Assembly: GCA_011033025.1 (NCBI GenBank)
Contig: WFMF01000040.1
Coordinates: 434,001-498,000, forward strand
From: Beroe forskalii
Taxonomy: Eukaryota > Ctenophora > Nuda > Beroida > Beroidae
Length of the DNA stretch: 64,000 bases
Reading direction: 5' to 3'
The position numbers were made by a program, and so were the translations under genes. Below are positions 6,883 to 60,220 of this stretch, one piece after another (the stretch's first letter is position 1; every line of letters begins with the position of its first letter). The notes under the pieces are model-generated. The model made no database searches. It was given only the letters and a program-made list of their open reading frames with translations, and was not told where the DNA came from.

Positions 6883-8516
6883 CTAGTGGCCGGCCGTATC
6901 TGAGCAGAAGTGCTTGTGTTTGCAACAGTTGCAGTCACTGCAGAAGACCATCCCTCCCGCTGTGTTGCACTTCTCCTCCTCCTCCTCACAAGGGACCTTC
7001 TTTTCCACCCATCTCTTCCCAGAGGTCCTTCCATCAGTCACGTAGTAACATATGTGGTTCTTCCTCTGCACTTCCACATAGACACAGTCCTTCGCTGCTA
7101 CGTTTTCCTTGCACGTGTTCCAAGCATCTTCCCAGGATTTCATACACCCACTGAGGTACGCTTTCTCTTTGCATTTCCCTGGTCTTGTTTCACTATCGCA
7201 GTGTTTCTGAGAAACAATCCAGTTTTTATAGTTATAGCCGTAATGTCCCGTTTCTTCTGAGCTGGTCCAGCATTTTCTCCCCACCTTTGATATGTGACAA
7301 TTGGCATTGTTTGCATCACATGAGCTACGAGCCTCATCACGATTTTTCATGCAAGTAGTCATGAGAGATACCTCGGAGCAAGAATCGGAATAATCATACT
7401 CTTTCTCCTGTTCTTCCTCCTCCTCCTCCTCCTCTTCTTTATTTTCCTCCTCCTCATCAGAGCTATCTCCCTCGTCCGGGTTTGGAGCTACACACCCAGC
7501 AGTACTCCTACACTCTAACTCCGGGTAGGCAGGGTGGCTGGAGATCTGGCACATGTTCTCCTTCTCCCTGTCCATGAGGATGTGTCCTCCCTCCCCCCAG
7601 GCCGCCCCCAACTGTTCCTCACTCTCCAGTACTTCCTCCCACTCGCGCTGTCCACTCCATACCCCACCAGAGCCACGGCGTGGTTCAGTCCGTCCTGACA
7701 GGTGTCGTCCACGTAGATACCCTGGGAGTAGCCCTGGAAGTAGGTGTTAGCGTAGACTGCCACCGTCAGGACATGGCTAGCAGCAGCAGCCAGCAGGTTG
7801 TCGTCTCCGGACGCCGCACTGTACGATGTAACCCTCACGTTGTTGTCCAGGAGAGCGTTAGGGGTGGTGGCGGTCACGTGACAGCTCATCCTGTCCCGTC
7901 CTAAGTAGGGGTACCCACTCGTGGGGGCTATCCTGTCCTTCTCCTTGGAGTAGTCCAGGCAGTCCTGGGGCCAGCCACCCTGACACCCGTCATAATTCAC
8001 GACACATTCCAAATACTCCTGCTCGGAGAGGCTCACCCCCTTGGTTCCTGTGGTGAAGTAGATCTCTCCTTCAAGGGTCGCAGTAGCGCCGTAGGTCCAG
8101 CAAGAACCGCAGGTTCCCTGATCCTTGACAGGAGGTAGAATTCCGCTGAAATCTCTGCTCTCTGGGAGATCAGTTCGTTTCTGGAGGACCCTGTAACTGG
8201 CATCCCTCTTCAGGCGGTCAGGTGCCACTCCACTGATATTAAGACCCAGGTGCATCTGCCTCTCTTCCTCCGTCAGAATAGACAGGAAGTTGTCAGTGGC
8301 TGTGTAGGGCCGGGAAGCGTCGCTGTTCACCTCCTCCACCTTGGCGTTAAACTCGACGAAGGAGTTGAACCGCTTCTCAATTACTTCGGGGGGCTCGGAT
8401 CGGAGGAGTCCGTCCTTGGCTCCGAACTTTGACATCGTTTCCCGGAAGAGATCCCGAACATCTTGTGACTGGGTCAGGGTTAGGATCGCAGCCACCAGCG
8501 TGAGGAACTTCATCAT
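6883..8516 (-). pseudogene. Copy A cysteine protease, one-base frameshift after NSWG
   Basis: Near-identical to the protease at 20449-22086 (signal peptide, propeptide, QGTCGSCW, LNHAVALVGYG, NSWG all present) and nested in the matching intron of copy A. A run of five C at 7605-7609 replaces six C at 21174-21179, shifting the frame directly after the NSWG motif. The read-through ends at 333 aa; the remainder, from GAAWGEGG through the acidic linker and Cys-rich tail, is open in the other frame (6883-7611). With only one lesion, in a homopolymer, this may be a sequencing error and the gene may be functional. If real, the product loses the end of the catalytic domain and the whole tail. Confidence 0.8.
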
Positions 8517-8616
8517 CGTGAGAGACTGTCTGTACTCGAGTTGTCTGCACTCGAGTTGTCAGTTGGTTTGGTACACTTGGGAATGGTTTGCCGTCTACCT
8601 GCCCCATGTTATATAC

Positions 8617-9644: not shown

Positions 9645-12600
9645 AGAATATTTAAAATTTCAATACAAAAATTTGATGGTTTAGATGTGGTAGACAATAT
9701 TGTTCCAGATGTTAATCATTTTTATAGATGTCGTAAATTATACGTTTCAAATGTGTTAAACTACTGTTCTAGATGTGTAGAAATTTATGACGGAGGTGAG
9801 TTCTATATGAAATTATAACTAAAAGTTTCCCAAATTTCAACGTGAAATAATATGGTCACTGGCTAATCCACCATAAGAGCTACACAAACTCTTAACGGAC
9901 TCACCGGAGGCTCGTCTACCTCTAGGAATGACAATGGAACAAAATGTTCAACTCTTACCTTTTCTCCTACAATAGTGAAAAGAGTTGATATTCTTCTGTC
10001 GTAAACTTTTAACCGAACTCGAAAATTCCATTGAGAGCGTAAATTATGACTTTAAACAGTTGAAACGTTTCCAAAGATTACAGTAACGAAATGGCAGATT
10101 CTTCGTTAAAATGTACGTGCAGTTTTTGCGCGCAATCACCAATAACCATAGCAACGCGCGCAACTGGTGAATCAAACCTATATCTTGGTCTTGTTTTTCG
10201 CGATTCTTTTTCCAACTTTGAGCATTAATTACGGAAACTCTAAAGCCTACATTCAAATAAAAATAATACTTTCCCAGACGGAATTTATTTTTCTACTACT
10301 CTGCAATAAATTGCGGGATTTCAACTCCACTTGGTTCAGTTATTTGGGGACAGCGGAGGGTAATGAGCAATTCTCCCTACATAAACTACACTCCAAGTCT
10401 CTCCCCCTGACAGTGACACTGCTAAACTCACCGTCCACGGAGTTCTTCTTGACGACCAGCTGCAGTTTCCCATACTGAGTGGAGGATGACTGGATCATGG
10501 CCACTATCTCGTTGTGTGCCAGGGTGTCTACCGAGGTGCTGTTGATGCTGAGCACGTGATCTCCCACCTCTAGTCGGGGGACTGCTGCTCCAGCCTGGAC
10601 GGGGAGATGAGGAGATGACTTTAGGGTATTCTGGAATATCATAAGATCTTTTAATATGGCAGTATAAACGGAGGCCGGAGGGTGCCTTAAACAAAGCAGA
10701 AATCGGAATTCAGCGATCGTAGCATTCAGGAATTATAAGATAGCATGAACATAGTTTGAATTAATTTCATCCAAAAACAGGAAACTCATTTTACCGGGGA
10801 TCCTCTGCCGACTTTGGACACCAACACAGGCATCTTCTGGTCAATTCCACCACGGACATTGAACCCAAACTTTCCGGAGGCATCAGGCAGTATCGTTATC
10901 TCAACTCCGTCACTCATTCGTTCCTCGTTTTCTAACAAATTAACCATCACGTAAGACATAAGTTCAATTCTGGTGCAATTCACCTCAGCGTTTTTATGGT
11001 CTTATAACGTAATTTTTTATGAAAATAAAATTGCGACAAACTATAATCTGCTCCTCTACCTGACGGGTTGGTCGTGTTCATGGCAGTGCTGATAGTTGAG
11101 TCCAGGTTCATTGCTACCTCTCCCGTCTTGGTGTCGTAGTCGAAGCGGGCATTCTCAGGAGCCGTGTCGTTGAGGTGTTGTGAGATGTCAGATGTCGTGC
11201 TGGCGTGGTGGGGAACTGCTGCCGACGATCTGAGGTGGTGGGATATTAGTAAGAATATGAGTTTAGAAGAAATAAGTTTTTCAGGGCTTGGATTGAAGGC
11301 AAATGTTACAGCGGTAGATTTTTTTCCGCTCATAAAATCTCCATGGACTGACAGTGAAACCGCGATATGTTATGGTTTTATCCAGAAGAAAGGTTTGAAT
11401 TAAGGTGGCGTAAGAGGATCTGAAGGGACTAAATTCAAACAAAGAGCCCTGGGCCAGAACTCAGTTTACTCACTGCAATGTTGTATCAGCTTTGCTCTGA
11501 CTCCTCAAATCTTTGCTTGAGGAATTCTTGTTAAGGTAAAAGTCTGCAGGATCACTATGATTGTTGATGGCATTATGATTATTGTTGCTATTATTCGCAT
11601 TGCTGCTGTTATTATTGTTTTTTGGTGATGTCAGCTTTCTCCGGGACATCCTCTTGCTGGGAGTCCTCTCGAAGTTGCTGTTAGTCCTCACCAGGTTGTT
11701 ATAGTCCTCTATTGCCTGGTGGAGAGTCCGACCCTTGTAGTGGTGCTTACTGCCTATCCTCATGAGTCCTTTGGAGGGAGAATCCCGGGGAGTGTTTAAC
11801 CTGAGGGGGAAGGAGGAGGGTTGCAAGTTTACAGGAGGCGCAGAGTCTACAGAAGTAGCAGAAGATTAACCGGGGGAATCAAACAGAATTACCAATATAA
11901 GTGTTCCTGCAATACCGGATGAGGTATGAAGAGTAGCGAACTCCTCATAGAAAGAAAAAAATCCAGGCAACTTATGGACAGCAAGTCAGTAAAATATACA
12001 GCCAAGTTTATGTTATTCATATATAATTCAAACAACGGTTTGAGAAACATATACCTAAAGAAAGAGTGGTATTCAACGCATCTTTTCCACACATTTTTAC
12101 AAGCTCTGTAAGGTACGATCTTGAAACCGATAATCTTAGACTGGTACTTTTGATCATTTTCTGATCTAATGTGTATGTAAAACTTCTTCTTTTTGAATGA
12201 TATCTTGATAATCTTCGCCCTGACGAGAAAAATTAATTTGTTTATGAAGTCTTATTATCATTGAAATAAGAAGCTCATTTGTATAGTTTATTATTTGTAT
12301 AGTTTATTTGTATAGCTTATTTGTATTCAAGAAAAACCTCTCATGACGTATATCTTTCCACTCACCATGAGAAAGAGTTGATTTTGTTGTCCTTCAGATA
12401 AACCACAATGCCGCTAGCCATGACTCCCAGCTGCAGCTGAATATTCTCCTCGTCAATGGCAGGGTGGAAGTCTACACCGTACATAGGCAGTCGCTTAGCC
12501 ATCTGAAATATAGGAAATATACCTGGCTTAAAATTGGAAATATCTTCAATTAGCATCGCTCCGTAAAACTCACTAACTTAGCTGGACATTTATTTTCTCA

Positions 12601-14085: not shown

Positions 14086-15434
14086 TATTCATTTAAACAT
14101 GCAAAATTAAAGGATGATTAACAAGGATTGCTAACATCCGCTATTAGACAGTTACTTCTGAATACTATAGTTTATGTTAATTGTTACATTGACTGAAGAA
14201 CTCGAAATTCTTCATTTATTAAACAATGTGGTGTAAGTACTGCGAGTATTGACATTTGAAGTGGATAATTAAAAAGGTCTCACCTCCAAGAACTTGTATT
14301 CGGCATCCTCACACTTGAGCCCTGTAATCTTCCCAGTGCTGTATCGTTATTTCTTCTTCCTCATACGAGGTCTGAAGTGAGAGGAATATTCAGGATTTAT
14401 TAAATATATATTTCATGGCGAAGTTCTTATCTACGATTTACATAGTTACAAGTTACTCCAAAAGGCAATGTAGATATTGCTGCCATGAAAACGATGACTT
14501 CACTACTTCAGTAGAATATCAGAGAAATTGTTAAAAGTTACCTGATTGGGTACAAGTCTCAACCTGAAATGTACCCGCCGTGTGAACCCTTAGGGTCGTA
14601 GTCCCTAACTCTGCCTGGAACCATAGGCTGCAAGTTGTGTGGCAGAAACCAGCGTACAACTCAACCTGAGAGAGTTAGAATTATCATTCGTGTTTAAAAC
14701 AGGGATAAAACATCAAAACATCGGTCCGACAATCTATTTCAATAATATACAAATCGAAATAGTTCCGCCCAATATTTACATTCTTTTTCGGCGTATGTAA
14801 GGTGATGGATCATTCAATCACAGAGGGTACCGCCAAAGAAATTTTCTTTTTGTGTATAAACTGTGCCGCCAAAATGAGTACCAGATGGAATAGGAATGTA
14901 TCATTCACATTCATGTCTGTTCAGTAAATCAATGGATGTTCATACGCCAGATGGCACTAACTTCACTTCAACTTCACAGGATTGATTAGATTTTCGATGG
15001 AAAGGGTGTGTCAGATAGATTATAATTTCATCATGTAGTAACTTGATCCATGGGGCGCGGTACACACAGAAACGCGACCAAATACTCATTAAAAAGTTTA
15101 AATTCAACTGATAATACACACTCACTTGCCAGATAGGAGGTCTTGTCGAGATTGCAGGTAGAACAGGTACCTGAAAGTCACATACCAGTTATCTGAATTT
15201 TAAAAAGTCTTTGACGTCTTTTTAAAATCTGTTAATTTAAATTTAGCTCCAATTAAGTTGACGCGCACTGTGCGCGCGTGGGAACGCGCAGCAAAGCAGG
15301 AGTAAGGATAGTAACCCGCGTTACAACAATGTCCTCGCGCCGTACCGACTTTAATCAAATATTTTGCTATTCCAGTAGGACTTTCTTCAAAATTGTATCA
15401 CTTTTTCTGGCTAGAATCGCGTGTTACCGGCAAA

Positions 15435-16610
15435 GAGTCAAGTAAATCAAAAACTAAACCTTGGAATTTGTCCAAAACTGAAACCTTGGAATGAATCGTT
15501 TGTGTAGTTTCCATTTAAAACACAAGGAAATCTCTAATACCAAGAAAAGTGGTACAAAATCGGCTTTTAAAGTCGATTTAATCAAAAACTAAACCCAGAA
15601 TTTGTCAAAACTTGGTTTATATATGTTGTGTCCCCTGAACACAACAGTTAAGTATGAAACGAATCGTATGTGTAGTTTCCATTTTAAAAACACAAAAATC
15701 TCCCAAAAAAGTCAAAATCCTAAAATCGTTTTAAACAAAAAAACACAAATTTTTTGAAAATTGGTTTATATGGTCAAGTATGTCCTGAACAAACTGTAAA
15801 AAAAAACAAACATGGGCCAGAAACAAGGGAAACTTCATCAAGAAAATAAAAAATCGGCTTTTAAATGTTTGGGTAAAAAAAACCCCCTTGAATTTGTTAA
15901 ACTTTTTATATGTTTTGTAACCCTGACACAACTGAAAGTATGAAAGAATCATTTTAGTTTCATTTTTTAACAAAGGAAATTTAATAAAGTGGTACAAAAA
16001 CGGGGTTTAAAATCGTTTAATCAAAAAACCCTTGAATTTGTTTTAACTTGGTTTAACATTAGTCCCAACACAACTGAAAAAAATGAAATTTGTAGTTTCC
16101 ATTTCCCCAAGGGAAATCCTTATCCAAAAAAAGGGGGACAAAACGGGTTTTAAGTCATTTTTAATTTTCCTTTTAAAAATTTTTTAAACGGTTTATTTCA
16201 AATTTTTCCCCTTAACAAATGTAAAATATAACGAAACTTTTTTTTGGGGTTTCCCTTTCAAAACACAAAAAAATTTCATACCAAAAAAAGTGGCAAACGG
16301 CTTTAAAGGGTTTGTCACACCAATTTTTTAAACAAAAAGTTCAATTTGTGGAAACAACTGTAGTAAAACAAATCGTATTTTAGATTTCCCTTTTTTAAAA
16401 AGAAATCTTAACCCAAGAAAAGTGGGGGAAAATCGGTTTAAAATGATTTGGTCAAAATTGGAATTTTTTGAAACTTGTTTTATGTTTATTGATGTCCCTC
16501 ACAATTTTAATCAAAGAAAAATGTGGCCCTTTTAAAAAAAAAGAAAATCTTATTCCAAAAAAATGGACAAAAAACGTTTTTTTGGGGATTTTCCCAAAAA
16601 TAAACCACTT
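15435..16610. repeat. Degraded satellite, unit about 140-165 bp, about 8 copies
   Basis: Repeats of the words GTGTAGTTTCCATTT, AAAAGTGGTACAAAATCGG and AATTTGTCAAAACTTGG. Copies towards 16.6 kb show extra and missing bases in homopolymers, as in uncorrected long reads. Separates copy A from the phosphatase 3' end. Confidence 0.75.
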
Positions 16611-17049: not shown

Positions 17050-20000
17050 CTGTCTCAGTCCCCTTTCCTATATAACCAGTCAGCAGTAGGCAGTAAAGCC
17101 AATAATGTCAATAACACGGTCACACAATGATGCCAAATACCTTATCTCTCTGTTACTTACTTTAAAGTAAACCCTCTGTTACTTACTGTACAAGTAGATG
17201 ATAGACTCGCAGGCGAAGTTGAAGAGCGGGAAGTTCTGAATGAGTTTGGGACGCTGGTCCCGTAGAGCTGTCACCAGATCCAGCGGGTAGACCCCGCTCT
17301 TACTGCGTATTAACTTCAGGGCGGTTTCTAGGAGAGCTACCACTCCTGTCCTTCCTATTCCTTCACTGGGGGAAGGGAAGGGGTTAGTGACTGTGACTTA
17401 AGACTGAAAGAGACAAAGAGGGTCAAAGAGCCAATGTCAACCATAAGAATAGAATCGTTCAGACCCCTTGACCATCACTTTTCCTCTGTCCACCCACTAT
17501 CAAACATTGACCAAAAATCACAGTTTAAATTAATCCAAGTTCCCCTCTCCACATACCTGCAGTGGACTAGAACAGGTGTCTCCACCAGTTTCCTCTTCTC
17601 ACTGATAAGACGGATAAAGTTAGAGAACTGAGCGGGATCCTCAGGAGTGCCATGATGAGGCCAGGCTGTGTACTGGAGGTGACACACCTGTCTTATCATG
17701 CCTGTCTGTGTCACCTCGAATTGACGCTCTATCCCGCCTTCCTGAGGGATAGAAGGTGTCAAAAACAGTTGGGTGTTGAAATCGTCTTCTTATGGACGAG
17801 AATCTGCTTTCTTCATTCAATGATACATTTTAATATGAGCAGCTTATGGAACTCTGAAGTACACAAGCTGTTACATTGAACAATGTACATTAAACAGAAG
17901 TTATAAATTGTGTAATGGCTACTTTCCTGACCGTTCAGAAAATTCTAGAAGTGTAGAAACATTCTGGATAGTGGATATTACTTACAAATGGGGTTTGGGA
18001 GATGCAGGTCACTTCGACACACCCATAGGACGAGGTCTGGGTGGGTTCAGGCCAGTACTGGGTACACTTTATGCTCTTCTTTTCAATACACTCCACCACC
18101 ATAATTATCAGTTCAACCTGCGAAAGTAGGATTGTAAAATGTAGAGGAGAAGGAAGACAAGTACGTTATAGCTCACTCAAGTTTAGTTTTGTTTTAATTG
18201 ATGTCAAAATCTAACTCTAATCTGTAAAGGGTACTGGGTTGTGGAATTACTATTTCCATCCTGGAATCCTTACCTCTTGCTCAAATATCATTTGCCAGTG
18301 ATCGTTGATGGTGCTGGACATGGGGCCCTGAGAGGCGATGTAGCTGAGCTGTTCAGTGCCCACGGGCACGTCTACATAGCTTGCGTTAATGTAGTCGTTA
18401 CCATCCAGCAACCTAACTCTCGTGGTGTCATCTGAGTGGGGGATGGGGTCATTGACGTTGACAATACCACTATAAGTTTCAGAAAAAAACAGCCTAGGTA
18501 CTGTCTGAAATGGGAAAATTTTTGCGTTTCCGAACATTATCCTATCCATTATAGCCCAAACTTTTAATCAATGGAACCGGAAATTAAGTTAGAAAAGTAG
18601 CACTATACTTACAAGGAATGATGTCCCTGAATCTGTTCTTGCTGTGGTTCTCATCTAACTTAGCAGCTACCATGGTAACACCAGGAGTTTGTCTGTACAG
18701 GTTGTTAAACTTGTTACTGAGAGTCCCGTCTTGTAGACTCTGCGGGGAGGAGCAATGGGTTTATAAAATAGTGGATGCCAAATTATGAATTTTAAACAAA
18801 TATTTTGTTGTGATTCGTATTTTGATATATTTGAAAAGAAAGGGCAATGATGGACTGATAAATTTGATTATTTATTTATATTAATAATTAGCACCATCAT
18901 GACAGTTCAAACCTTTTTGAGAATAGTCATGGATCTGTCCAGGAGGTTAGCAGTTTCAGGGTTGAACTTGGGTAACTCCGGGAGTTCGTAGTGGGAGTCT
19001 CGGGAGTTTTCCAACTCCTCCCCCTTCTCCTTACCGTCAACTGGGAGAGAGGGTGTGTCAAACACAGGGTGCCACAATGTCAAGTTATCATTTTAAGTAT
19101 CAGTGATGAAAACAGGGAGTTTTTGGGTAAGGGGCCATCCATAAAGGACGTCCGCAAAATTTCTGCTATTATAGACCCCTCCCCCCCCCCCTTGTCCGCA
19201 AACTGAAATACCCCCTCCCCTCCGGACGTCCGCATTTTCATTCAAAATCATTTGCGTCATCATTGTTATGCCCGTTTTCTCAAATATGGTGACAAAATCA
19301 ACTTTATTACTTGACGCGATGTCGAAAATCTAAGTCAAAATTCTAATAAATCGACTATTTTCTAGTGAAAGACCAGCCAAATCGACCAAAATTTTCATTA
19401 ATGCGGACGTCCACATTTGGTCAACAACCCCACTCCCCCTCACAATCACCCTTATCTCACTACCTTTTAACTGCCACTTTAACTGCCATAAATAACACTT
19501 TCATCATAATTATACGGCATCGTGATAAAAATGAGTAATTAGTTATCTATATATCGATCCTGAGAGATCATCAAACTCAAGCTCTTATCACTCCCTAACG
19601 ATGACTATGTCTTTAACTAACTGCTACCTTAAGTCCACACCACTCTTTTCCCCAATATCAATGACTATGCACAAACTCAACCAGCTGGAAGATGACTCTC
19701 TAACCTAGTGTTCTGTGGACACGCCACTAGTGGCGTGTCCACAGAACACTAGGTTAGAGAGTCATCTTCCTCTCAATCTTACCACAGGGATCAAGGTAGT
19801 CAATCTTCAGAGGGGCGCCCCCGACCATTTGTTACTCCTAGAGTAACACCACCCGGTACCAGGTAAGAGGTTACTAGCCTGCTAGTAGTGCAACCAGGTG
19901 GGTCCCAGTAGAACTCTCTGCTGTTGAGAGTTGCCACCCACTCCGCAAGGTGATGTGGTGGTCCGTGGATTTTGCACCAAAAAAACCCCCACTCCCCCTA

Positions 20001-23000
20001 TGTCCGCAAACGTCCGCATTGGCCAGACTCCCCCCTCTTTGCGGACGTCCTTTATGGATGGCCCCTAACCCTTATATTATTATTTTTTCAATAATATAGA
20101 ATTGAACTTAGTAATGAGATATTAAAGATTTCACATTTTATTAACGAGAAACCCCGTTATGTCCGATAAGGACTGTTCAGAGTACAATCTTTTTAATTGA
20201 CAATTGAACCTTTTTTAAATGAATAACCTCAGAATTAGAAGGCGATTTCAAGTATCTTGAGTCGATTGGGTGCTATAAGTTAGAAAATTAAACCAAATTC
20301 ATCGGATTTAAAGCAAATGCAGGTTTACAATTCAACAAATGGATATTATCATAGTACTCAAGTATCATAATTCAAGCAGCACCATGTCCCAAACTGCCAG
20401 TGTGACACTAGCTAGTGACACTAGCTGTTGTGTCACTACTTGATGTCACTAGTGGCCGGCCGTATCAGAGCAGAAGTGCTTGTGTTTGCAGCAGTTGCAG
20501 TCACTGCAGAAGACCATCCCTCCCGCTGTGTTGCACTGCTCCTCCTCCTCCTCCTCACAGGGGACCTTCTTTTCCACCCATCTCTTCCCAGAGGTCCTTC
20601 CATCAGTCACGTAGTAACATATGTGGTTCTTCCTCTGCACTTCCACATAGACACAGTCCTTCGCTGCTACGTTTTCCTTGCACGTGTTCCAAGCATCTTC
20701 CCAGGTTTTCATACACCCACTGAGGTACGCTTTCTCTTTGCATTTCCCTGGTCTTGTTTCACTATCGCAGTGTTTCTGAGAAACAATCCAGTTTTTATAG
20801 TTATAGCCGTATTGTCCCGTTTCTTCTGAGCTGGTCCAGCATTTTCTCCCCACCTTTGATATGTGACAATTGGCATCGTTTGCATCACATGAGCTACGAG
20901 CCTCTTCACGATTTTTCATGCAAGTAGTCATGAGAGATACCTCGGAGCAGGAATCGGAATAATCATACTCTTCCTCCTGTTCCTCCTCCTCCTCCTCCTC
21001 TTCTTCATTATTTTCCTCCTCCTCATCAGAGCTATCCCCCTCATCTGGGTTTGGAGCTACACACCCAGCAGTACTCCTACACTCTAACTCCGGGTAGGCA
21101 GGGTGGCTGGAGATCTGACACATGTTCTCCTTCTCCCTGTCCATGAGGATGTGTCCTCCCTCCCCCCAGGCCGCCCCCCAACTGTTCCTCACTCTCCAGT
21201 ACTTCCTCCCACTCCCACTGTCCATTCCATACCCCACCAGAGCCACGGCGTGGTTCAGTCCGTCCTGACAGGTGTCGTCCACATAGATACCCTGGGAGTA
21301 TCCTTGGAAGTAGGTGTTAGCGTAGACTGCCACCGTCAGGACATGGCTAGCAGCAGCAGCCAGCAGGTTGTCGTCTCCGGACGCCGCACTGTACGATGCA
21401 ACCCTCACGTTGTTGTCCAGGAGAGCGTTAGGGGTGGTGGCGGTGACATGGCAACTCATCCTGTCCCGTCCTAAGTAGGGGTACCCACTCGTTGGGGCTA
21501 TCCTGTCATTCTCCTTGGAGTAGTCCAGGCAGTCCTGGGGCCAACCACCTTGACACCCGTCATAATTCACGACACATTCCAAATACTCCTGCTCGGAGAG
21601 GCTCACCCCCTTAGTTCCTGTGGCGAAGTAGATCTCTCCTTCAAGGGTCGCAGTAGCGCCGTAGGTCCAGCAAGAACCGCAGGTTCCCTGATCCTTGACA
21701 GGGGGTAGAATCCCGCTGAAATCCCTGCTCTCTGGAATATCAGCTCGTTTCTGGAGCACCCTGTAGCTGGCATCCCTCTTCAGGCGGTCAGGAGCCACTC
21801 CACTGATATTAAGACCCAGGTGCATCTGCCTCTCCTCCTCCGTCAGAATAGACAGGAAGTTGTCAGTGGCTGTGTAGGGCCGGGAAGCGTCGCTGTTTAC
21901 TTCCTCCACCTTGGCGTTAAACTCGACGAAGGAGTTGAACCGCTTCACAATTACTTCAGGGGGTTCGGATCGGAGGAGTCCGTCTTTGGCTCCGAACTTT
22001 GACATGGTTTCCCGGAAGAGATCCCGGACATCTTGTGACTGGGTCAGGGTCAGGATCGCAGCCACCAGCGTGAGGAACTTCATCATCGTGAGAGACGGTC
22101 TGTACTCGAGTTGTCTGTACTTGAGTTGTCAGTTGGTTTGGTACACTTGGGAATGGTTTGCCGTCTACCTGCCCTATGTTATATAGTCTACCGTCAATCA
22201 GACCAGATGTTTGATTGTGCCAGGTGAAATTCGTCAAATATAGCTTACTTCGCAATATACTGGGAAATTAGCTAAATCAGACAATGACCTCTTCGAAATC
22301 CATTGTCTTATGAAACTTATAGGTGTCAGTTAATTAACTATCATTTGAGAATTTAAAATTTTAATACAAAAATTTGATGGTTTAGATGTGGTAGACAATA
22401 TATTGTTCCAGATGTTTTCAACAACTTCTATAGATGTCGTAAATTATACGTTTCAAATGTGTTAAATTATTGTTCTAGATGTGTAGAAATTTATGGAGGA
22501 GGTGAGTTCTATATGAAATTCTAACGAAAAGTTTTCCAAAATTCAACCATAAGAGTTACACAAACTCTTAACGGACTCACCTCTGGTGCTCGAGCCTTCA
22601 GCCCTTACACCGGAGGCTCGTCTACCTATATGACAATGGAACAAAATGTTCAACTCTTACCTTTTCTCTTACAATAGTGATAAGAGTTGATAATCTTCTG
22701 TCGTAAACTTTTAACCAAACTCGAAAATTCCATTGAGAGCGTAAATTATGACTTTAAACAGTTAAAACGTTTCCAAAGTACACAGCAACGAAATGGCAGA
22801 TTCTTCGTTAAAATGTACGTGCAGTTTTTGCGCGCAATCACCAATAACCATAGCAACGCGCGCAACTGGTGTATCAAACCTATATCTTGGTCTTGTTTTT
22901 CGTGATTCTTTTTCCAACTTTGAGCATTAATTACGGAAACTCTAAAGCTTAAATTCAAATAAAAATAATGCTTTCCCAGACGGAATTTATTTTTCTACTA

Positions 23001-26000
23001 CCCCGCAATAAATTGCGGGATTTCAACTCCGTTTTTAGCTGGCGTATAGGCCCAACTAAACACGGGTGCTTCAACTGCCTTAATCCTTTATAATAATGAC
23101 GGATATCATAAACTACACTCCAATTCCCTCCCCCTGACAGTGACACTGCTAAACTCAACGTCCACTGAGTTCTTCTTGACGACCAGCTGCAGTTTCCCAT
23201 ACTGGGTGGAGGAGGACTGGATCATGGCCACTATCTCGTTGTGTGCCAGTGTGTCTACCGAGGTGCTGTTGATGCTGAGCACGTGATCTCCCACCTCCAG
23301 TCGGGGAACTGCTGCTCCAGCCGGGAGGGAGATCTTAAGTATTTTCTGGATCCTAAAATCTTTATATAAGACAGGTTAACCGAAGGTTGCATTAAACAAA
23401 GCAGAAGTTGACATTCAGCAATCTTAGCTTGTGGAGATCAAGAGAAGAACGTAGTTCTTAACATCGTTTGGATTAATTTGATCCAAAACAAAAACTCATC
23501 TCACCGGGGATCCTCTGCCGACTTTGGACACCAACACAGGCATCTTCTGGTCAATTCCACCACGGACATTAAACCCGAACTTTCCGGAGGCATCAGGCAG
23601 TATCGTTATCTCAACTCCGTCACTTATTCGTTCCTCGTTTTCTGAAGAATTAATCATCACATAAGACATGTTAGTTCATTTCTGGTGCAATTCACCTCAG
23701 CGTTTTTTTATTCACGAAAATAATTTTGCGGCGAACTAGAATTTGCTCCTCTACCTGACGGGTTGGTGGTGTTCATGGCAGTGCTGATAGTGGAGTCCAG
23801 GTTCATTGCTACCTCTCCCGTCTTGGTGTCGTAGTCGAAGCGGGCGTTCTCCGGAGCCGTGTCGTTGAGGTGCTGTGAGATGTCAGATGTCGTGCTGGCG
23901 TGGTGGGGCACTACTGCCGAAGATCTGGAGTGGTGGGATTTTGGTTAGAATATGTGTTTAGAAGAGATAAGATTCTCAGGACTTGGAATTTGAATTAGAA
24001 GCAAATGGAGTGAGAGTGAAACCGCGATGTTTCATGGTTTATACAGAAAAACGGTTTACCGTCGAATTAAGGTGACATAAGAAGATGTGAAAGGACTTTT
24101 AATTCAAGCAAAGAAGAGCTATAATTCTAGTTACTCACTGTAGTGTAGTATCGGCTTTGCTCTGACTCCTCAAATCTTTGCTTGAGGAATTCTTGTTAAG
24201 GTAAAACTCTGCAGGATCACTGTGATTGTTGATGGCATTATGATTATTGTTGCTGTTATTCGCATTGCTGCTGTTGTTATTGTTTTTTGGTGACGTCAGC
24301 TTTCTCCTGGACATCCTCTTGCTGGGGGTCCTTTCGAAGTTGCTGTTAGTCCTCACCAGGTTGTTGTAGTCCTCTATGGCTTGGTGCAGAGTCCGACCCT
24401 TGTAGTTGTGCTTACTGCCTATCCTCATTAGGCCTTTGGAGGGGGAATCCCGGGGAGTGTTCAACCTGAAGAAGGGAAGGAGGAGGGTTACAAGGTTACA
24501 TGAGGCGCAGCTTACTGCTTATCCTCATTAGGCCTTTGGAGGGAGAATCCCGGGGAGTGTTTAACCTGAGGTAGGGAAGGAGGAGGGTTACGAGTTTACA
24601 GGAGGTGCAGAGTCTACAAAAATAGCGCAAGATTAACCGGGGGAATCAAACAGAATTAACAAGATCAGTGTTCCTGCAATACCGGATGAGGTATGAAGTG
24701 TAGCGAACTCCTCATAGAAAGAAACAAATCCAGGCAACTTATGGACAGCAAGTCAGTAAAATATACAGCCAAGTTTATGTTATTCATATAATTCAAAAAA
24801 CGGTTTGATAAACATTTACCTGAAGAAGGAGTGGTATTCGACGCATCTTTTCCACACGTTTTTACAAGCTCTGTAAGGTACGATCTTGAAACCGATAATC
24901 TTAGACTGGTACTTTTGATCGTTTTCTGATCTTATGTGTATGTAAAACTTCTTCTTTTTGAATGATATCTTGATAATCTTTGCCCTGACGAGATTAATTT
25001 GTTTGTTTATGATTTCTTACAATTAGAAGAACTTATTTGCGTAGTTAATATCATTCAAGTAAAACCTCTTATGACATATCTTTCCACTCACCATGAGAAA
25101 GAGTTGATTTTGTTGTCCTTCAGATAAACCACAATGCCGCTAGCCATGACTCCCAGCTGCAGCTGAATATTCTCCTCGTCAATGGCTGGGTGGAAGTCTA
25201 CACCGTACATAGGCAGTCGCTTAGCCATCTGAAATATAGGAAATATACCTGGCTAAATATTGGAAATATCTCCAATTAGCATCGCTCCGTAAAACTCACT
25301 AACTTAGCTGGACATTTATTTTCTCATGAACAAATTGAATTTAGTAAGAAGCTATATAGAATGTGATACACGATATAACAGTTAAAGCTGTCGGCATAAG
25401 GAAGCCACAGGACTTAATGTGTCCAAGGTTGTGGAGCTTCGCAATTCCTGTGCATACGGTAAACAACAACAAACGTTATAGCATGGTGCGTATTGCGTTA
25501 TGGTCAAAACATAGAACCAGAAAGTATGGCTGATTGTTAGTAATAGTAATAGTAATAATGGATTTTGACAACAAGTCAACTCAATTCATATATCCCCTGA
25601 TCGACCTAAACTCTATTAAAGTTTTCCACAATATAAAAAATTATTCATTTAAACATGCAAAATTAAAGGATGATTAACAAGGATTGCTAACATCCGCTAT
25701 TAGACAGTTACTTCTGAATACTATAGTTTATGTTAATTGTTACATTGACTGAAGAACTCGAAATTCTTCATTAATTAAACAATGTAGTGTAAGTACTGCG
25801 AGTATTGACATTTGAAGTGGATAATTAAAAAGGTCTCACCTCCAAGAACTTGTATTCGGCATCCTCACACTTGAGCCCTGTAATCTTCCTGTGCTGTATC
25901 GCTATTTCTTCTTCCTCATACGAGGTCTGAAGTGAGGGGAATATTCAGGATTTATTGCAATATATATTTCATGGCGAAGTTCTTATCTACGATTTACATA

Positions 26001-29000
26001 GTTACAAGTTACTCCAAAAGGCAAATGTAGATATTGCTGCCATGAAAACGATGACTTCACTACTTCAGTAGAATATCAGAGAAATTGACTAAAAGTTACC
26101 TGATTGGGTACAAGTCTCAACTCTGAAATGTACCCTGCCGTGTGAACCTTAGGGTCATAGTCCCCTAACTCAGCCTGAACCACATAGGCTGCAAGTTGCG
26201 TGGCAGACACCAGCGTACAACTCAACTTGCCAGAGTTAGAATTATCATTCGTGTTTAAAACAGGGATAAAACATCAAAACATCGGTCCGACAATCTATTT
26301 CAATAATATACAAATCGAAATAGTTCCGCCCAATATTTACATTCTTTTTTCATATGTGTATGTAAGGTGATGGATCATTCAATCACAGAGGGTACCGCCA
26401 AAAGAAATTTTCTTTTTGTGTATAAATCGCACTGTGCCGCCAAATGAGGACCAGATGGAATAGGAATGTATCAGACTGTACATTCACATGCGTCTGTTCA
26501 GTAAATCAATATGGATGTTCATACGCCAGATGGCACTAACTTCACTTCAACTTCACAGGATTGATTAGACTTTGGATAGAAAGGGGGTGTCAGATAGATT
26601 ATAATTTCATCATGTAGTAACTTGATCCATGGGGCGCGGTACACACAGAAACGCGACCAAATACTCATTAAAAAGTTAAAATTCAACTGATAACACAACT
26701 CAACTTGCCAGATAGGAGGTCTTGTCGAGATTGCAGGTAGAACAGGTACCTGAAAGTCACATACCAGTTATCTGAATTTTTAAAAAGTCTTTGACGTCTT
26801 TTTAAAATCTGTTAATTTAAATAAATTTAGCTCCAATTAAGTTGACGCGCACTGTGCGCGCGTGGGAACGCGCAGCAAAGCAGGAGTAAGGATAGTAACC
26901 CGCGTTACAACAATGTCCTCGCGCCGTACCGACTTTAATCAAATATTTTGCTATTCTTGCAATTCCTGTGGATTAACAAGGCCAAAATAGTCTCGTCAGG
27001 TACTATAACCATCAGAATTCAGTCTTCTTCAAACATACAGCGCACACATAGAACAACTTCAACCTGCTGCAACAATTTTCCAGGAATTTCTATGATAAAG
27101 AGTGCCAAAAAAGCAAAATCACTTTTCTTTCTTTCAGTGATGAAATCATACGGTTAAGCTTTTATTATACAGTGTATTCGATTCGAAGCGACGAAGAGTT
27201 CTCCATTGTTAGAATCATAGGTAAGTTAAAGAACATGAATTGTTGAACCATGAAGCATGTGGCAACATGGTATGCAATCTAGCGTATTGTGTCAGTTGCT
27301 TCTTTATAAGGGGCTGGTCATATCAATGTTAACACTTCCACACCACGCTTTCAATGATAACCAGCCCCTCCTACTACTACCACTAACCAGGCATTCATTG
27401 ATGAGTGATACCCAGCCCCTTCTACTCCTATTACGCCTTCCTTGACGAGCGATTACCAGCCCCTTCTACTCTAACCACGCCTTCATTGACGAGTGATGAC
27501 CAGCCCCTTCTACTCTAACCACGTCTTCATTGATGAGTGATGCCCAACTCATCTTACTCCTGCCACGCCTTCCTTGACGAGCAATGAGCAGCCCCTCCTA
27601 CTCCAACCACGCCATCCTTTACGAGTGATAACCAAACCCTCCTACTCCTACCACCCCTTCCTTGACGAGTGATGATCAGCCCCTCCTACTCCTACCACGC
27701 CTTCCTTCACGAGCGATGAGCAGCCCCTTCTACTCCTACCACGCCTTCCTTGACGAGCGATTACCAGCCCCTTCTACTCTAACCATGCCTTCATTGACGA
27801 GTGATGACCAGCCTCACCTACTCCTACCGCGCCTTCCTTGACGCGTGATGAGCAGCCCCTTCTACTCCTACCGCGCTTTCCGTGACGAGTGATGACCAAC
27901 CCCTCCTACTCCTACCACGCCTTCCTTGACGAGTGATGACCAGCCCATCCTACCCCTACTATGCTTCCTTGACGACAGGAGAATGATAACTAGCCCCGGC
28001 CCCTTCCATGACAAATGACAAATGAGGACCAGCCCCTCCTACTACTACCTCAAATTCCTCGGCGAGTGATGACCTGCTCCTAATACACCTTCATTGACGA
28101 ATGACGAGTGATGACCAACCCTTCCTAATCTCTGATTGGAATTTTCAATCGACCCCGTCTTTTCAAAAAAGTTTGAAAAGTGTTTATTGATTTATTGTGA
28201 ATGTGACTGATCAATAACGGCAAAAACTGAAACTTCAAACTTCAAGCTTGGTATTAGACTAAGCACCGCTATGCTTAACATTCCTATTCCACCACTACGA
28301 CAGGATATTAAAGGCTACGTTTATCTGGAACTTCTAAGTCAGAGCATTTATCCCTGTCACTATCAGAGCACATTGGAGAATACCTGTTCATATTAAGTCT
28401 TAAATACTTGGGCCCCATAGTCTAGACTTGTATGCGATGTTTAATAGGAGATTAAACGTTTTCGAAGTCATCTCTGAATATGGGCACCATGTAGTACATG
28501 TTTATGCAGCGTCATTACATATGTATATAATGAATATATTCAATCAGTGTACACCACATAACATAGCGGCCATCAGCAGCCCTGCCACAATCATGGGCAT
28601 TAACCCTGCTTTTGGATATAATTATACACCAGAACTTTCTAAATATAGCAGGTTTTTTTAATTATTCGAAACATTTTCTTGGCATTTTCTCCGCACACAA
28701 TTGACGTATGACTATGAGTTTTGACATGGCTTAATAATACAGTGCAGTGGATGTGAATTTCAATTTCCTTTACAGCATATTACAGCATATATACTGACGG
28801 ATTCTATGTAAATTCAACACACATTATCAGCATCATCAGTTCTATAATTTCAAACATGCAACCCGTCATCTGTGAATTGATGTCAAAATTATCATCGTTT
28901 ATCAGCGATTACCATGAGAAATTATACTAGAAATACAAAGTATACACTGGGGCAATTCCCAAGAGGGTAATATACATCCTATAGGGAGACACTTTCTATG

Positions 29001-32000: not shown

Positions 32001-35000
32001 AGGGCAAGATTTTTGACGAAAAGAAGGGCAAAAAGAAGGGCAATAGGTACCTTTTTGCGGAGCAAAATTGGTCATTTTAGCAGGCAAATCACCTGATGAA
32101 CGCATGCTACCATAGGCTTTTAGGTACCTTTTTGAACACCAGCTACACCAACCAATTATGGGTACCTTTGTGAACCACCAGGTACACCAGCCAATTATGG
32201 GTACCTTTTCGAACAAACAGTTACACCAACCATTAATGTGTATCTTTCTGAACCACCAGTTACACTAAAAAATTATGGGTACCTTTCTGAGCCACCAGTT
32301 TCGCCAACCTATTATGGGTACCTTTTCTAACATTCAGTTACACCAATCAATTATGGGTACCTTTCTGAACCACCAGTTACACCAACTAATTATGGGTACC
32401 TTTCTGAACCACCAGTTACACTAACCAATTATGGGTACCTTTCTGAACCACCAGTTACACTCACCAATTATGGGTACCTTTCTGAACCACCAGTTACACT
32501 AACAAATTATGGGTACCCTTTTTGAACCACCAGTTACACTAAACAATTATGGGTACCTTTCTTAACCACTAGTTACACCAACCAATTATGGGTACATTTC
32601 TGAACCACCAGTTACACCAACCAATTCTGGGTACCTTTCTGAACCACCAGTTACACCAACCAATTATGGGTACCTTTCTGAACCACCAGTTACACCAATC
32701 AATTATGGGTACCTTTCTAAAGTCTGAACCACCAGTTACACTAACCAATTATGGTTACCTTTCTGAACCACCAGTTACACTAACAAATTATGGGTACCCT
32801 TTTGAACCACCAGTTACACTAAACAATTATGGGTACCTTTCTGAACCACTAGTTACACCAACCAATTTTGGGTACATTTCTGAACCACCAGTTACACCAA
32901 CCAATTATGGGTACCTTTCTAAAGTCTGAACCACCAGTAACACTAACCAATTATGGGTACCTTTGTAAACCACTATTTACACCAACCAATTATGGGTACA
33001 TTTCTAACCACCAGTTACACTAAGCAATTATGGGTACCTTTCAATAACCAGTTGCACCAGTTACCAATTATGGGTACTTTTCTGAACCACCAGTTACACC
33101 AACCACTTATGGGTACCTTTTTGAACCACCAGTTACACCAACCAATTATGGGTACCTTTTTGAACCACCAGTTACACCAACCAATTATGGGTACCTTTCA
33201 ATAACCAGTTACTCCAGTTACAATTATGGGTACCTTTCTGAACCACCAGTTACGCCGAACCAATTATGGGTACCTTTTCGAACAACCAGTTACACCAACC
33301 AATTATGGGCACCTTTCTGAGCCAACAATTACACCAACCAATTATGGGTACCTTTCTAAACCACCAGTTACACTAACCAATTATGGGTACCTTCCTGAAG
33401 CAACAGTTACAACATCAATTATGGGTACTTTTCTGAACCACCAGTTACACTAAACAATTATGGACACCTTTCCGAACCACCAGTTACACTTACCAATTAT
33501 GGGTACCTTTCTGAACCACCAGTTACGCCAACCAATTATGGGTACCTTTTCGAACAACCGGTTACACCAACCAATTATGGGTACCTTTTCGTACAACCAG
33601 TTTCACCAACCAATTATGGGTACCTTTCTGAACCACCAGTTACACAAACCAATTATGGGTACCTTTCTGAACCACTAGTTACATCAACCAATTATGGTTA
33701 CCTTTCTCAACCACCAGTTACACTAAACAATTATGGGTACCTTTCTGAATCACCAGTTACACTGAGCAATTATGGGTACCTTTTCGAATAACCAGGTAAC
33801 TTTGGGTATTGGGTATTTTTGACGCTTATGCTCATCTTTTTTTTTTCTTTTTTTTTAATGCTCATCCTGCTAAGTATACTTTTTTAAACTGCACTAACGT
33901 CCATACCAATATAAGCACTTTTAAAAATTGAAATAGTGCCGATACCATCTTCAGCATTTCTGTGTTCCACAAAATACACAACTTTGCAGAAATTCGATAA
34001 ACCCATCGATGAATATGCTTGTAATCCAAATGATGATTGATGAATCACTGATTCAGGCTACAGGTATACTAATCAATGAGTGTATTTATTTTTCCAAATC
34101 ACCGATTTTAAATCTTATTCCTATCTTCCTATGATACAGGAAAATACAGGTACCTTTCGGACTGATTTGCCCTCCTAAAGCAGGGCTCGGTTTGCAAAGC
34201 AGGGCAAAAAGAAGGGCAAAGCAGGGCACCCTGCGAAAGAAGGGCAAATTGGCAGCTATGGACTGTCATTCTTTCATCAAGTTCCACTTCGTGGCAAGGG
34301 TTATGTGCATATACTATTAACTGATTATTAATGCACAGGATTGCGAGATATAGCAAAGACCAAAGTATTGCGAGATATTGCAGACTGCTGAGGTTAATAG
34401 GCAATGCTCAGTGCCAGATTTTCATATCATAGTTGCACGCTTGTGATAAAGTAGTAACAATAAATGAAGAGATAATCGTTCACTGGAACATTACGCTGAG
34501 AATTATGCAAAAATGAATGCTTGTGACTACTGGTAGGGTACAGTATTAAATTTGAGCTGAGGAAAATTTGCCATAAATGGCCTCGAAACCAATTTCTGGT
34601 GTGTTATACATCATACTTCAGACTAAGCAATTGATTATACAATTAACTAACTCATGGATCGTGTGTTATCGACAATTATTGTGAACTCAGGCACAACCTT
34701 ATGGGACTATTGTCGATAGCACACTCCCATTCATTAGTTAATCACCCATTATCTATCATGAGAAGATCCCAGCAGTGTTGAATTATATATATATTTCTGA
34801 TAGTGGTAGATAAATCCTTTCGGCCCACAAAACCACATTAAACACCACGTAGCATTATATAATGGTACGTAATGTAGCGAACTTTGGAACTTGTAGAGCT
34901 AACTTCGTGTATCGAATCAATGCACTAATACCAGTGGGCAATGAGTAACGTTGGTTCATCTCCTCATCACTTACTCTGCAACTCATTATCATCTCACTAA

Positions 35001-38000
35001 TTTGCACTCAGAATAAATAGGCGGTCGAAATGACGTCATTTAGATTGTGCGCGCTGCCAAGTTGTTGAAAATAACCGCCTTTTTTCGTGCGTGGGGTATA
35101 AGGGAGGGGTGAATAGAGACTGAAGCGAGGGTACACACAAAGACACACATTACACAAAGACAGTGTAACAGTTCAGAGCCACAACTATGTAACACTTGTA
35201 TATAACAATGTTTAAAATGTACATTATATTAACAGACTGTAATTGCTTCAGAATACCAGTGTACTGGAATACTGTAGGCATATGACAAACATCATAATAC
35301 TGGAATTCAGAAATTTATTATGTTAATCTTTAATCCGCAGTACTATCAAGAGGCAGGGGCGTAGCCAGGTGGAGGCTACACAGGTAACCGCCTCACCTTT
35401 TTGGAAATTGTGAAACTTTTGTAATGAGTAGAGCTCGGATCCAAGCCAAATACGACATTCAACTGGTTTTGAATGTAATTCGCCGACCCCTTTCTGAAAA
35501 CCTGGCTACGCCCCTGTCAAGAGGTGCATTGATATCTGTCATGTCTCATGACAAAATTAAAACTTGGGGATGAGGAACTGTTATCAAAAGTAAAGAGGGA
35601 AGCTCACCGTAAGTCCTGATTCGCTGTCAGTATACAGCAGACCGAAGTAGTCCTTCTCCACTAGGTCCAGCCTCTTGTAAGTCTCATCGAGCAGTGCAGA
35701 CCCGACACTTTGACGCTGAGGGTATGGGAATGTTAGTCTCATCGAGCAGACCCAACACTCTGGCGCTGAGGGAATGGGAATGTGAGTCTAATCGAGCAAA
35801 GTACCAATACTCTGACGTTGAGGGAATGGGAGCCCGGGTCAAAATTTGTGTGATGGGTTAATGAGTGTTACTGACTAAAATAGGTAAGGAGAATGGGGGA
35901 CTAGGGGCGGAATAATACAGGGGAAATAAAGCTAAGAAGAGGGGAATTGCGAAACAATCACCATACACGCCCTCTCATAACCTGCCCATGCTGCACAGGT
36001 TGCAAGAGATAAATTCATGGTTACAGTGTGCAACGTGTTCAACTTTCAGAGTGACGTTTTCAACGTGGTCAACGTTTACCATTTACAAATTAAACAGGAG
36101 TTTACACGAACTCTTAGCTTCACTTAATTGAGTGTCTAAGATAGTAAAACACATTTACGACACACAGCTATCTATCAGATACAATAAACTGTAATAACAC
36201 TGGGGTAATATTCATTATATTCCGACACTGCAATCATTTCATGCTCATTGCTGAGCGTAGACAGGGGAGACAGTGGTAAGACTTCAACCAAATACAATGC
36301 AGGTATCATTAAAGCATTAAGCCTTATACAGCTGCGAACTGAACAGTGAACGGATATATATTAGTCACTGGTCGCGTTAAAACTTTAAAAGGCAGAAGAA
36401 TTTCAACGTAGGTTGAACGTCAATCACTCTATTATGTAGAGGCTTCATAAGGATTAAATCCCGAGAAAAAATTGCTGTTGTTCAAGCATGACAAATTTTA
36501 AAAATCTAATCTCTTTAGATTTATATCTACAAGAGAAGCAATATATCCTGCTTTTATTGTTCAGGGAATAATGCAGTGGAACTTGAGATTCACAATGTAA
36601 TGTATCTTAGATCCGACTACCTGTAACTGTCACATATAGTACTTAATCTGCACTACCCGTTAAAAGATCAGAAGTAGAAGTCTTACACTTTCAAAGGGGC
36701 AGTGTAGTAGGGATATTAACACAGCCGCTGATTCACCGGATTAGTTTGGATCAGAAGATTCCTAAATCATGAGATTACCATTGTCTGACATAATTTGGTT
36801 GTGTATTCCTGTACTCCAGTGTATATAATAGTAGGTAGTGATAGAAATGATTATAAGAGCAGGGAAGCTGCCTTGTTCGGTGTACTCAGCAATATTAAAC
36901 GATAATTGTACAGGTAATTGAACAGGTAATTGAACAGTTAACTGAACAGGTAACTGATAATAGACTAGGTATTTAGAGAGAAGTTGTTGTAATTACAAAT
37001 ATGAACCACTACTATGATGGTGCAATTACAATGTAGTACATGGTGAATTGTGTGTATATGGGTTCGTTGAGGATGATAAATAATATTAAGTGTACCGATA
37101 ATCAGCGAAGTAACGACCGAAGACAAACAATACATACGTAACTTGTAGTATATGCACAACGTATCCGGTATCATAGGATGGTAGATGAAAATTTGTAGAA
37201 ATTCCTTACTAGATAATTTGGTGCTCTGTGATCTTCCCAATTCTCATTTCTCAAAGCTTTACCAAACGTAGCGTTTTTATATTTTCCTTTCGTTTCTCTT
37301 GCATAACATATAATTGATGAAATATTGTTATTTATAAAACAATCCTTTGCATTATTACATCATTAGATTAAATGAAATTATATGCAATCACATGTTTTGT
37401 ATGACGGTCATTAATCATTATTCATTATGTTCACTGCACACAGTACATGGTATAGTGTAATACACAAAACACAATACATTGTGCACTGAACACCATGGCC
37501 CATCATATTGGACTTCTTTCACTTCATACATAATTCACAATTTCATACACTATGAACTTGGATAGTATATTCACTCTTTAGTCCTAACAAATATTTGATA
37601 TTCTGTAAAAAATTGAATACCTTCAACGAGCGTGCAGGTTAATTTCAGCAAGCATAGCATGTGTGTTTATTATTCTGAGAATGCTCTTGCTTCTGCTATA
37701 GTTCAAGTGATTTAATAGATAAATGTATGCTCTGGCCTCTGATATTAAAATCTTCAACTGATTTGATAGATAATTGATGTCACTCAAAGTTCAAATTACT
37801 GCCATTATGAAACTTTAGTCAGTTGCCTTTGTGATTTTCATGAAATTACTCAATTTAGCTATTGCATCATACCTTTTAATTTTCCGCTTTCGTAATATTT
37901 AAGTGTCAAGTCTTTAGTGTATGTGCTTTCTCATATTTTATCATAAGTCATAATTAAATCAAAATTGGCCCAGAAGTTGCACTTATGCTGTATGCAACAT

Positions 38001-59955: not shown

Positions 59956-60220
59956 GACCGAATTAGGTTTCAATTGACACAGGAAAATTTCGACTTACTC
60001 TCGCAATTCTTCCCGGGGATCGGAGACCAAAAGTCGTCGGAACACTTTTCACAAAACGACCCAGTAGTTCCTTCGGAACAGCTGAGAGTTTGGAGTTAAT
60101 CCGAATCTAAACATGATAATATGTACAGTTGAATAATATATACAGTTGAATAAGTATGACCACATGATAATATGGAACCCTACAAGAGTGGCAAAATGAG
60201 TGGGTAAAATTAGCATTTGA

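Follow-up and report, generated by a model that had tools for sequence, protein, structure and literature searches.

The locus analyzed here raises the question of whether a FERM-PDZ-PTP protein of the ctenophore Beroe forskalii, whose PTP domain deviates from its family at catalytic positions, is still an enzyme. The window, i.e., the whole stretch of 64,000 nucleotides that was analyzed, corresponds to C470:434001-498000 of a 216-Mb assembly, C470 being the name of the contig in our analysis. We refer to the focal gene in the window as copy B and to a tandem copy, the PTP part of which is located just left of the window, as copy A.

Gene structure and domain architecture

The span 17187-17741, described as one feature in the initial annotation of this DNA, comprises two minus-strand exons, 17557-17741 and 17187-17365. 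They belong to a set of six exons within 17187-19040 whose acceptors (AG), donors (GT), and phases all fit and which when joined encode 302 residues representing much of the PDZ-PTP linker and the PTP domain. The coding stretches of copy B and the exons of copy A located in the window are as follows.

17187-17365, minus: PTP exon with the remainder of the P-loop (SEGIGRTG) and the Q-loop (LIQNFPLF); AG acceptor, GTAAGT donor, fitting phase; same residues in copy A
17557-17741, minus: PTP exon with WPHHG and the HC of the P-loop; splice sites; DNA identical in copy A (C470:430643-430827)
17986-18117, minus: PTP exon (VELIIMVVECIEKKSIKCTQYWPEP); splice sites and phase
18274-18431, minus: PTP exon (DTTRVRLLDGNDYINASYVD to FEQE); splice sites and phase
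18613-18739, minus: exon with KNRFRDIIP, the pTyr recognition loop; splice sites and phase
18913-19040, minus: PDZ-PTP linker exon; splice sites; aligns to the PTPN3 linker
23160-23318, minus: second half of PDZ, coding stretch, splice sites not fixed; Pfam PF00595
23505-23603, minus: first half of PDZ (KFGFNVRGGIDQKMP), coding stretch, splice sites not fixed; Pfam
24138-24467, minus: probable linker, coding stretch separating FERM from PDZ; open reading frame
24819-24983, minus: FERM_C coding stretch; PF09380 match
25091-25228, minus: FERM_M/FERM_C coding stretch (MAKRLPMYGVDFHP); Pfam
25837-25929, minus: FERM_M coding stretch; Pfam
26100-26231, minus: FERM_M coding stretch; Pfam
26704-26754, minus: start of FERM_M (FRYLFYLQSRQDLLSGK); Pfam
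35620-35718, minus: part of FERM_N (LDLVEKDYFGL), weak match; PF09379, C470:469620-469718, E 3.4e-4
1389-1515, minus: copy A, exon with the pTyr recognition loop (PTP exons following it are outside the window, to its left); splice sites
2320-2447, minus: copy A, PDZ-PTP linker exon; splice sites
10442-10591, minus: copy A, second half of PDZ

We infer from position and strand that the FERM_N part at 35620-35718 belongs to the copy B gene. The C-terminal tail is likely encoded at 16.8-17.1 kb, where the splice sites are unsure. An exon at 18.4 kb beginning with IVNVNDPIPHSD was considered and rejected; the acceptor is at 18431, and the exon join reads IIPYDTTRV.

With the joined FERM, PDZ, and PTP pieces as query, full-length human PTPN3 (PTPH1; 6t36) gave a colinear match of 486.7 bits in all, divided into two stretches, one covering FERM (161.7 bits) and the other covering PDZ, linker, and PTP (323.2 bits). 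This ordered match and the fitting splice sites and phases of the six exons rule out a chance resemblance or a wrong reading frame. When the PTP domain alone was compared with solved PTPs, it was closest to PTPN3/4, with PTPN4 (MEG1) giving the best single-domain score among the best 60 of 244 entries (254.4 bits, compared to 241.2 bits for PTPN3 and 172.1 bits for PTPN13). Six of these 60 entries scored above PTPN4, all of them receptor chains with two matches each, whose single matches did not exceed 157.2 bits in the three alignments shown.

The Pfam families FERM_M, FERM_C, PDZ, and Y_phosphatase were all found above their cut-offs in copy B, and the order of FERM, PDZ, and one PTP domain is that of the PTPN3/PTPN4 class, FERM_N being found in part. 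PTPN3 and copy B have in common the PDZ motif FGFNxxGGxDQKMP, the KNR(Y/F)(K/R)D loop, and HCSxGIGRTG. The colinear match to PTPN3 and the top single-domain score of PTPN4 support the PTPN3/4-type assignment made in the initial annotation. Its statement that FERM and PDZ look intact holds for the coding stretches of copy B that were read, all of which are open, with FERM_N found only in part; in copy A, the FERM region is broken as assembled.

In both copies, the PDZ exons are separated from the PTP exons by a further gene on the same strand (20449-22128 and 6883-8558, minus), which from its motifs we take to encode a papain-like cysteine protease with a Glu-rich and Cys-rich tail. As assembled, it consists of one 559-residue stop-to-stop frame in one copy and of two overlapping frames in the other.

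Active-site residues of the PTP domain

The exons 17557-17741 and 17187-17365 read TAWPHHGTPED, VLVHCSEGIGRTG, and DQRPKLIQNFPLFNF. In the WPD loop (TAWPHHG), the Asp, which is the general acid, is replaced by His (codon CAT, 17655-17657). The P-loop (HCSEGIGRTG) retains the Cys (TGC, 17559-17561) and the Arg (AGG, 17350-17352), and the Ala at position Cys+2 is replaced by Glu (GAA, 17362-17364). In the Q-loop (LIQNFPLFNF), the first Gln is kept (CAG, 17236-17238) and the second one is replaced by Leu (CTC, 17224-17226), so that QTxxQ reads QNFPL. The altered WPD loop, the retention of Cys and Arg, and the exchange of the second Gln had been noted before and can all be read off the codons. Additional changes are the exchange of the Q-loop Thr for Asn and of the Tyr after the second Gln for Phe, and KNRF (KNRFRD) instead of KNRY in the pTyr loop, which we grade as mild. 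The Lys of the KCxxYWP motif (KCTQYWP) is kept. In PTP1B numbering, these positions correspond to Tyr46→Phe, Asp181→His, Cys215, Arg221, and Gln262 (all kept), Ala217→Glu, Thr263→Asn, and Gln266→Leu.

At the same places PTPN3 has WPD, HCSAGIGRTG, and VQTSSQY, whereas copy B has WPH, Glu at Cys+2, and QNFPLF. As the canonical catalytic residues WPD, CSAG, and QTxxQ are not found in copy B, its membership in the PTPN3/PTPN4 class would be one of descent and architecture and not of catalytic residues or activity. A PTP-fold pseudophosphatase is marked by changes in residues needed for catalysis, which were found, and by a lack of measurable phosphatase activity, which is predicted for copy B. Loss of the Asp would leave the domain with no efficient general acid, Glu at Cys+2 would disturb both the nucleophile and the binding of phosphate, and a single remaining Gln would hold the hydrolytic water poorly; in combination, the three changes suggest that turnover is very low or nil. 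Judged from its sequence, the PTP domain of this PTPN3/PTPN4-type FERM-PDZ-PTP protein has in our view likely become a pseudophosphatase.

The crippled turnover proposed in the initial annotation is backed, by analogy, by effects published for the same positions in other PTPs. The exchange D181E was reported to lower the activity of PTP1B by three orders (PMC2638020), and D1057E caused an ~115-fold loss in PTPRK (PMC7320164). At Cys+2, HD-PTP has Ser and both IA-2 and IA-2beta have Asp in place of the Ala; all three were reported to be inactive, and the change back to Ala was described as sufficient to restore activity in HD-PTP (PMC2661844). The Ala-to-Glu change, treated as an addition to the case in the initial annotation, may be as decisive as the loss of the Asp. 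The function ascribed to the second Gln, positioning of the water, was right in part, as Gln262 and Gln266 of PTP1B are both reported to hold the catalytic water in closed structures (PMC2638020) and only the second Gln is lost here. The assumption that substrate binding is still allowed is doubtful in view of the Glu in the phosphate loop, since even the Ser of HD-PTP was argued to repel phosphate (PMC2661844). pTyr binding should likewise suffer from a carboxylate in the phosphate pocket, which makes a substrate trap less likely than a protein-binding scaffold; the idea of a substrate trap is thus weaker than the claim of inactivity.

Alternatively, the domain might still be an enzyme, either a slow one or one acting on another substrate such as a phosphoinositide, with His or Glu replacing the lost acid. 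Cys, Arg, and the first Gln are kept, and the retention of this Gln, of the KCxxYWP Lys, and of the KNR loop would suit a ligand-binding or weakly active pocket and counts against inactivity, as does the fact that a His in the WPD loop might in principle donate a proton. There are also published precedents: PTPN21 with WPE, once called dead, was described as weakly active (PMC10901363), PTPRQ with Glu in its motif as selective for phosphoinositides (PMC7320164), and PTPRN2 was reported to act on inositol lipids. However, three catalytic loops are changed together in copy B, and HD-PTP with changes at Cys+2 and in WPD was reported to have neither tyrosine nor lipid phosphatase activity (PMC2661844). 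By analogy, ordinary turnover is unlikely with three loops altered together, and we regard the reading as an enzyme of any kind as rather doubtful. Quite improbable is a rewired site, in which Glu would place the acid in the phosphate loop and His a base on the WPD loop, so that the two might pair on closure and give either a latched, constitutively closed binding module or a PTP with swapped acid and base and another substrate. If it were true, the animal would have traded the enzyme for that function, as this is the only clear PTPN3/4-type locus found in the assembly.

Comparison of the tandem copies

The PTP part of copy A is located at C470:430263-431536, left of the window, and further exons lie in the window at 1389-1515, 2320-2447, and 10442-10591. 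All three changes are also present in copy A (C470:430263-430827), which makes a local base error unlikely; the exon parts with His and Glu are identical between the copies, so that copy A is not independent evidence for these two residues. Across the six exons, 13 of 909 nucleotides but none of 302 residues distinguish copy A from copy B, all differences being silent. Twelve of the 13 differences are concentrated in the final 80 nt of the last PTP exon, the stretch encoding the altered Q-loop; a path-averaged count assigned 11 of them as synonymous and 1 as non-synonymous, the proteins nonetheless being identical. The Leu codon in place of the second Gln lies in this diverged stretch, yet it is kept in both copies. 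Elsewhere, the numbers of synonymous and other differences were 8 and 0 in the two PDZ stretches, 19 and 2 in the linker, 7 and 0 in FERM_C, and 1 and 0 in one FERM_M/C stretch. These counts speak for protein-level constraint on both copies, the altered domain included; because the 701 nt that start with the exon ending at 18739, include the His and Glu codons, and stop 99 nt into the exon ending at 17365 show no A/B difference, the constraint is evident only in PDZ, linker, FERM_C, and the final 80 nt of the PTP part.

The same comparison bears on the possibility that the gene decays and that the active-site changes are neutral steps toward a pseudogene. As assembled, 3 bases are missing from one FERM_M exon of copy A, in which 19 of 132 positions are mismatched, and another FERM_M exon has 1 extra base and 2 amino acid changes with no silent change. 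In contrast, copy B is open throughout the coding stretches read, and the absence of residue changes at 13 nucleotide differences and the counts for PDZ, linker, and FERM_C argue against decay, which we consider very improbable. A recent pseudogene is ruled out for copy B by the silent-only differences in the PTP part and the synonymous excess. Copy A, without an intact FERM region as assembled, may represent a PDZ-PTP part only or may be poorly assembled there.

In the four introns between the invariant exons, 92 of 742 aligned positions differ; one of these introns has 3852 nt in copy A and 181 nt in copy B, and the alignment bridges a large insertion. Exons that are alike across unlike introns suggest exon-wise homogenization (cDNA conversion) or polishing with RNA reads, and the two copies look partly homogenized. 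The pattern observed between C470:430263-436447 and 17187-19040 of the window resembles cDNA-type gene conversion or an RNA-polished assembly.

An assembly fault, consisting either of wrong bases or of two haplotypes placed head to tail, could be suspected from the degraded repeats at 15400-16600 between the copies, from the exons being far more alike than the introns, which RNA-read polishing could also yield, and from the broken FERM region of copy A. Against it, the changed motifs are in frame and in both copies, within an otherwise clean domain of 262 residues, and a haplotype fault would change the copy number but not the motifs. We hold such a fault to be highly unlikely as the origin of the changes.

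The stretch 15400-16600 contains degraded repeats (a pair of 212 columns, 69.8% alike) and long homopolymers and has an unpolished look. Self-comparison of the window revealed tandem duplications and arrays at 41554-47280, 55264-59957, and 32118-33798, with a 2.9-kb pair 98.8% alike, one period near 330 bases, and another near 78 bases. The 5′ part of the gene at 34.3-38.9 kb is found again, 86-99% alike, at C247:1990000-1999900 (L060). A blastn search of the window against L060 gave no match to the PTP, PDZ, or FERM_M stretches, and L060 is perhaps a haplotype piece or a segmental duplication.

Other PTP loci in the assembly

A search of the assembly with the PTP family profile gave at least 80 matches, and 19 stretches from other PTP loci, some of them near-copies (L003, L006), served as a control. 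In the 18 stretches extending over the WPD column, Asp was found in 13 (WPD in 10, WKD in 2, and WND in 1), Glu in 2, and another residue in 2 (WIM in an IA-2-like gene and WRG), and 1 (L044) was not alignable by eye; a clear His was present in none of the 18. A P-loop motif scan of 53 loci, which can miss loops split by introns, revealed SAG in nine and SEG in the copy A/B gene only; the IA-2-like gene has SDG, and one further locus has CRDG. The control tally and the scan make the change look like a property of the gene and not of the organism or the sequencing.

A canonical PTPN3/4 gene was not found elsewhere in the assembly among 28 matches from 55 scored candidates, all matches with at least 70% identity being located on C470. 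The motifs WPDHG, HCSAGVGR, and VQTEEQ are retained in a gene on C446 that is somewhat closer to PTPN14/21 (119.7 bits, compared to 112.5 bits for PTPN3, with a joined-fragment query); given this small margin, there is a residual chance that it is an active relative.

Three further loci were altered in PTP motifs. The PTP at C224:282942-283622 (L001) is receptor-like, matched without an intron, and keeps WPD, and its P-loop Arg is read as Trp (HCSAGAGWTG); it is possibly another inactive PTP. The IA-2-like gene at C238:13600-14600 (L041) has WIM and SDGIGRTG, and a PTP at C669:118900-123600 (L042) has WRG and an apparent Ser at the place of the Cys, near the frame end.

Comparison with other altered PTPs

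IA-2 and IA-2beta are receptor-type proteins with no FERM or PDZ. In our alignment, human 2i1y, which we take to be IA-2 (the structure table says only receptor-type PTP), has WPA and SDG, and PTPRN2 has WYD and SDG. IA-2 (PTPRN) and IA-2beta (PTPRN2) thus resemble copy B in having an acidic residue at Cys+2, and IA-2 also lacks the WPD Asp; unlike copy B, IA-2 has Ala and not His in this loop, and the genome contains a separate IA-2-like gene. Neither 2i1y nor 2qep was among the best 60 of 244 solved PTPs, and FERM and PDZ are present in copy B. On sequence grounds, the copy B gene is not a relative of IA-2, though it is changed at the same two positions (WPD Asp and Cys+2 Ala).

HD-PTP (PTPN23) has another architecture, and PTPN21 (PTPD1) has no PDZ domain. 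HD-PTP is described as silenced by its change at Cys+2, and its WPD is changed, too, but the residues are Ser and Glu, compared to Glu and His in copy B. PTPN21 is likewise a FERM-PTP with an altered WPD, but it has WPE and keeps both Q-loop Gln residues and the Ala at Cys+2 (PMC10901363). According to the PTPN21 paper, all other FERM-PTPs have WPD (PMC10901363), and the copy B gene would be a further exception. PTPRU shares with copy B changes in several active-site loops and a retained Cys and was proposed to be a substrate competitor, but it is a receptor with WPE, GSRQ in place of KNRY, and Thr in the PTP loop (PMC7320164). A mosquito PTPMEG orthologue has been catalogued as having an active domain (PMC4138107), so that the loss would not be general to invertebrates. 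Human PTPN4 was reported to be regulated by its PDZ domain via the linker, and the linker here, when loosely compared by eye, has SHYELP close to the position of the conserved FQYI patch described for PTPN4 (PMC5554198). In titles and abstract openings of the open-access literature, we found no description of a PTPN3/4-type protein that lacks the WPD Asp.

As a pseudophosphatase, the protein would function via FERM at the membrane and via PDZ with a C-terminal peptide, the PTP fold serving as a protein-binding module that may compete or dimerize with active phosphatases, in line with a proposal for PTPRU and a report on PTPRN. It would then probably have an adaptor role in place of an enzyme role, as is known to have happened elsewhere in the phosphatase family. 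If true, a member of the PTPN3/PTPN4 group would have lost its enzyme function, with changes at the two positions that are also altered in IA-2. The finding would indicate that a FERM-PDZ scaffold role can persist without catalysis, and it would provide a natural test of how far PTPN3/4 function depends on phosphatase activity. Its main interest would lie in the occurrence of a loss of the IA-2 kind in a FERM-PDZ phosphatase, if this loss is shared by relatives.
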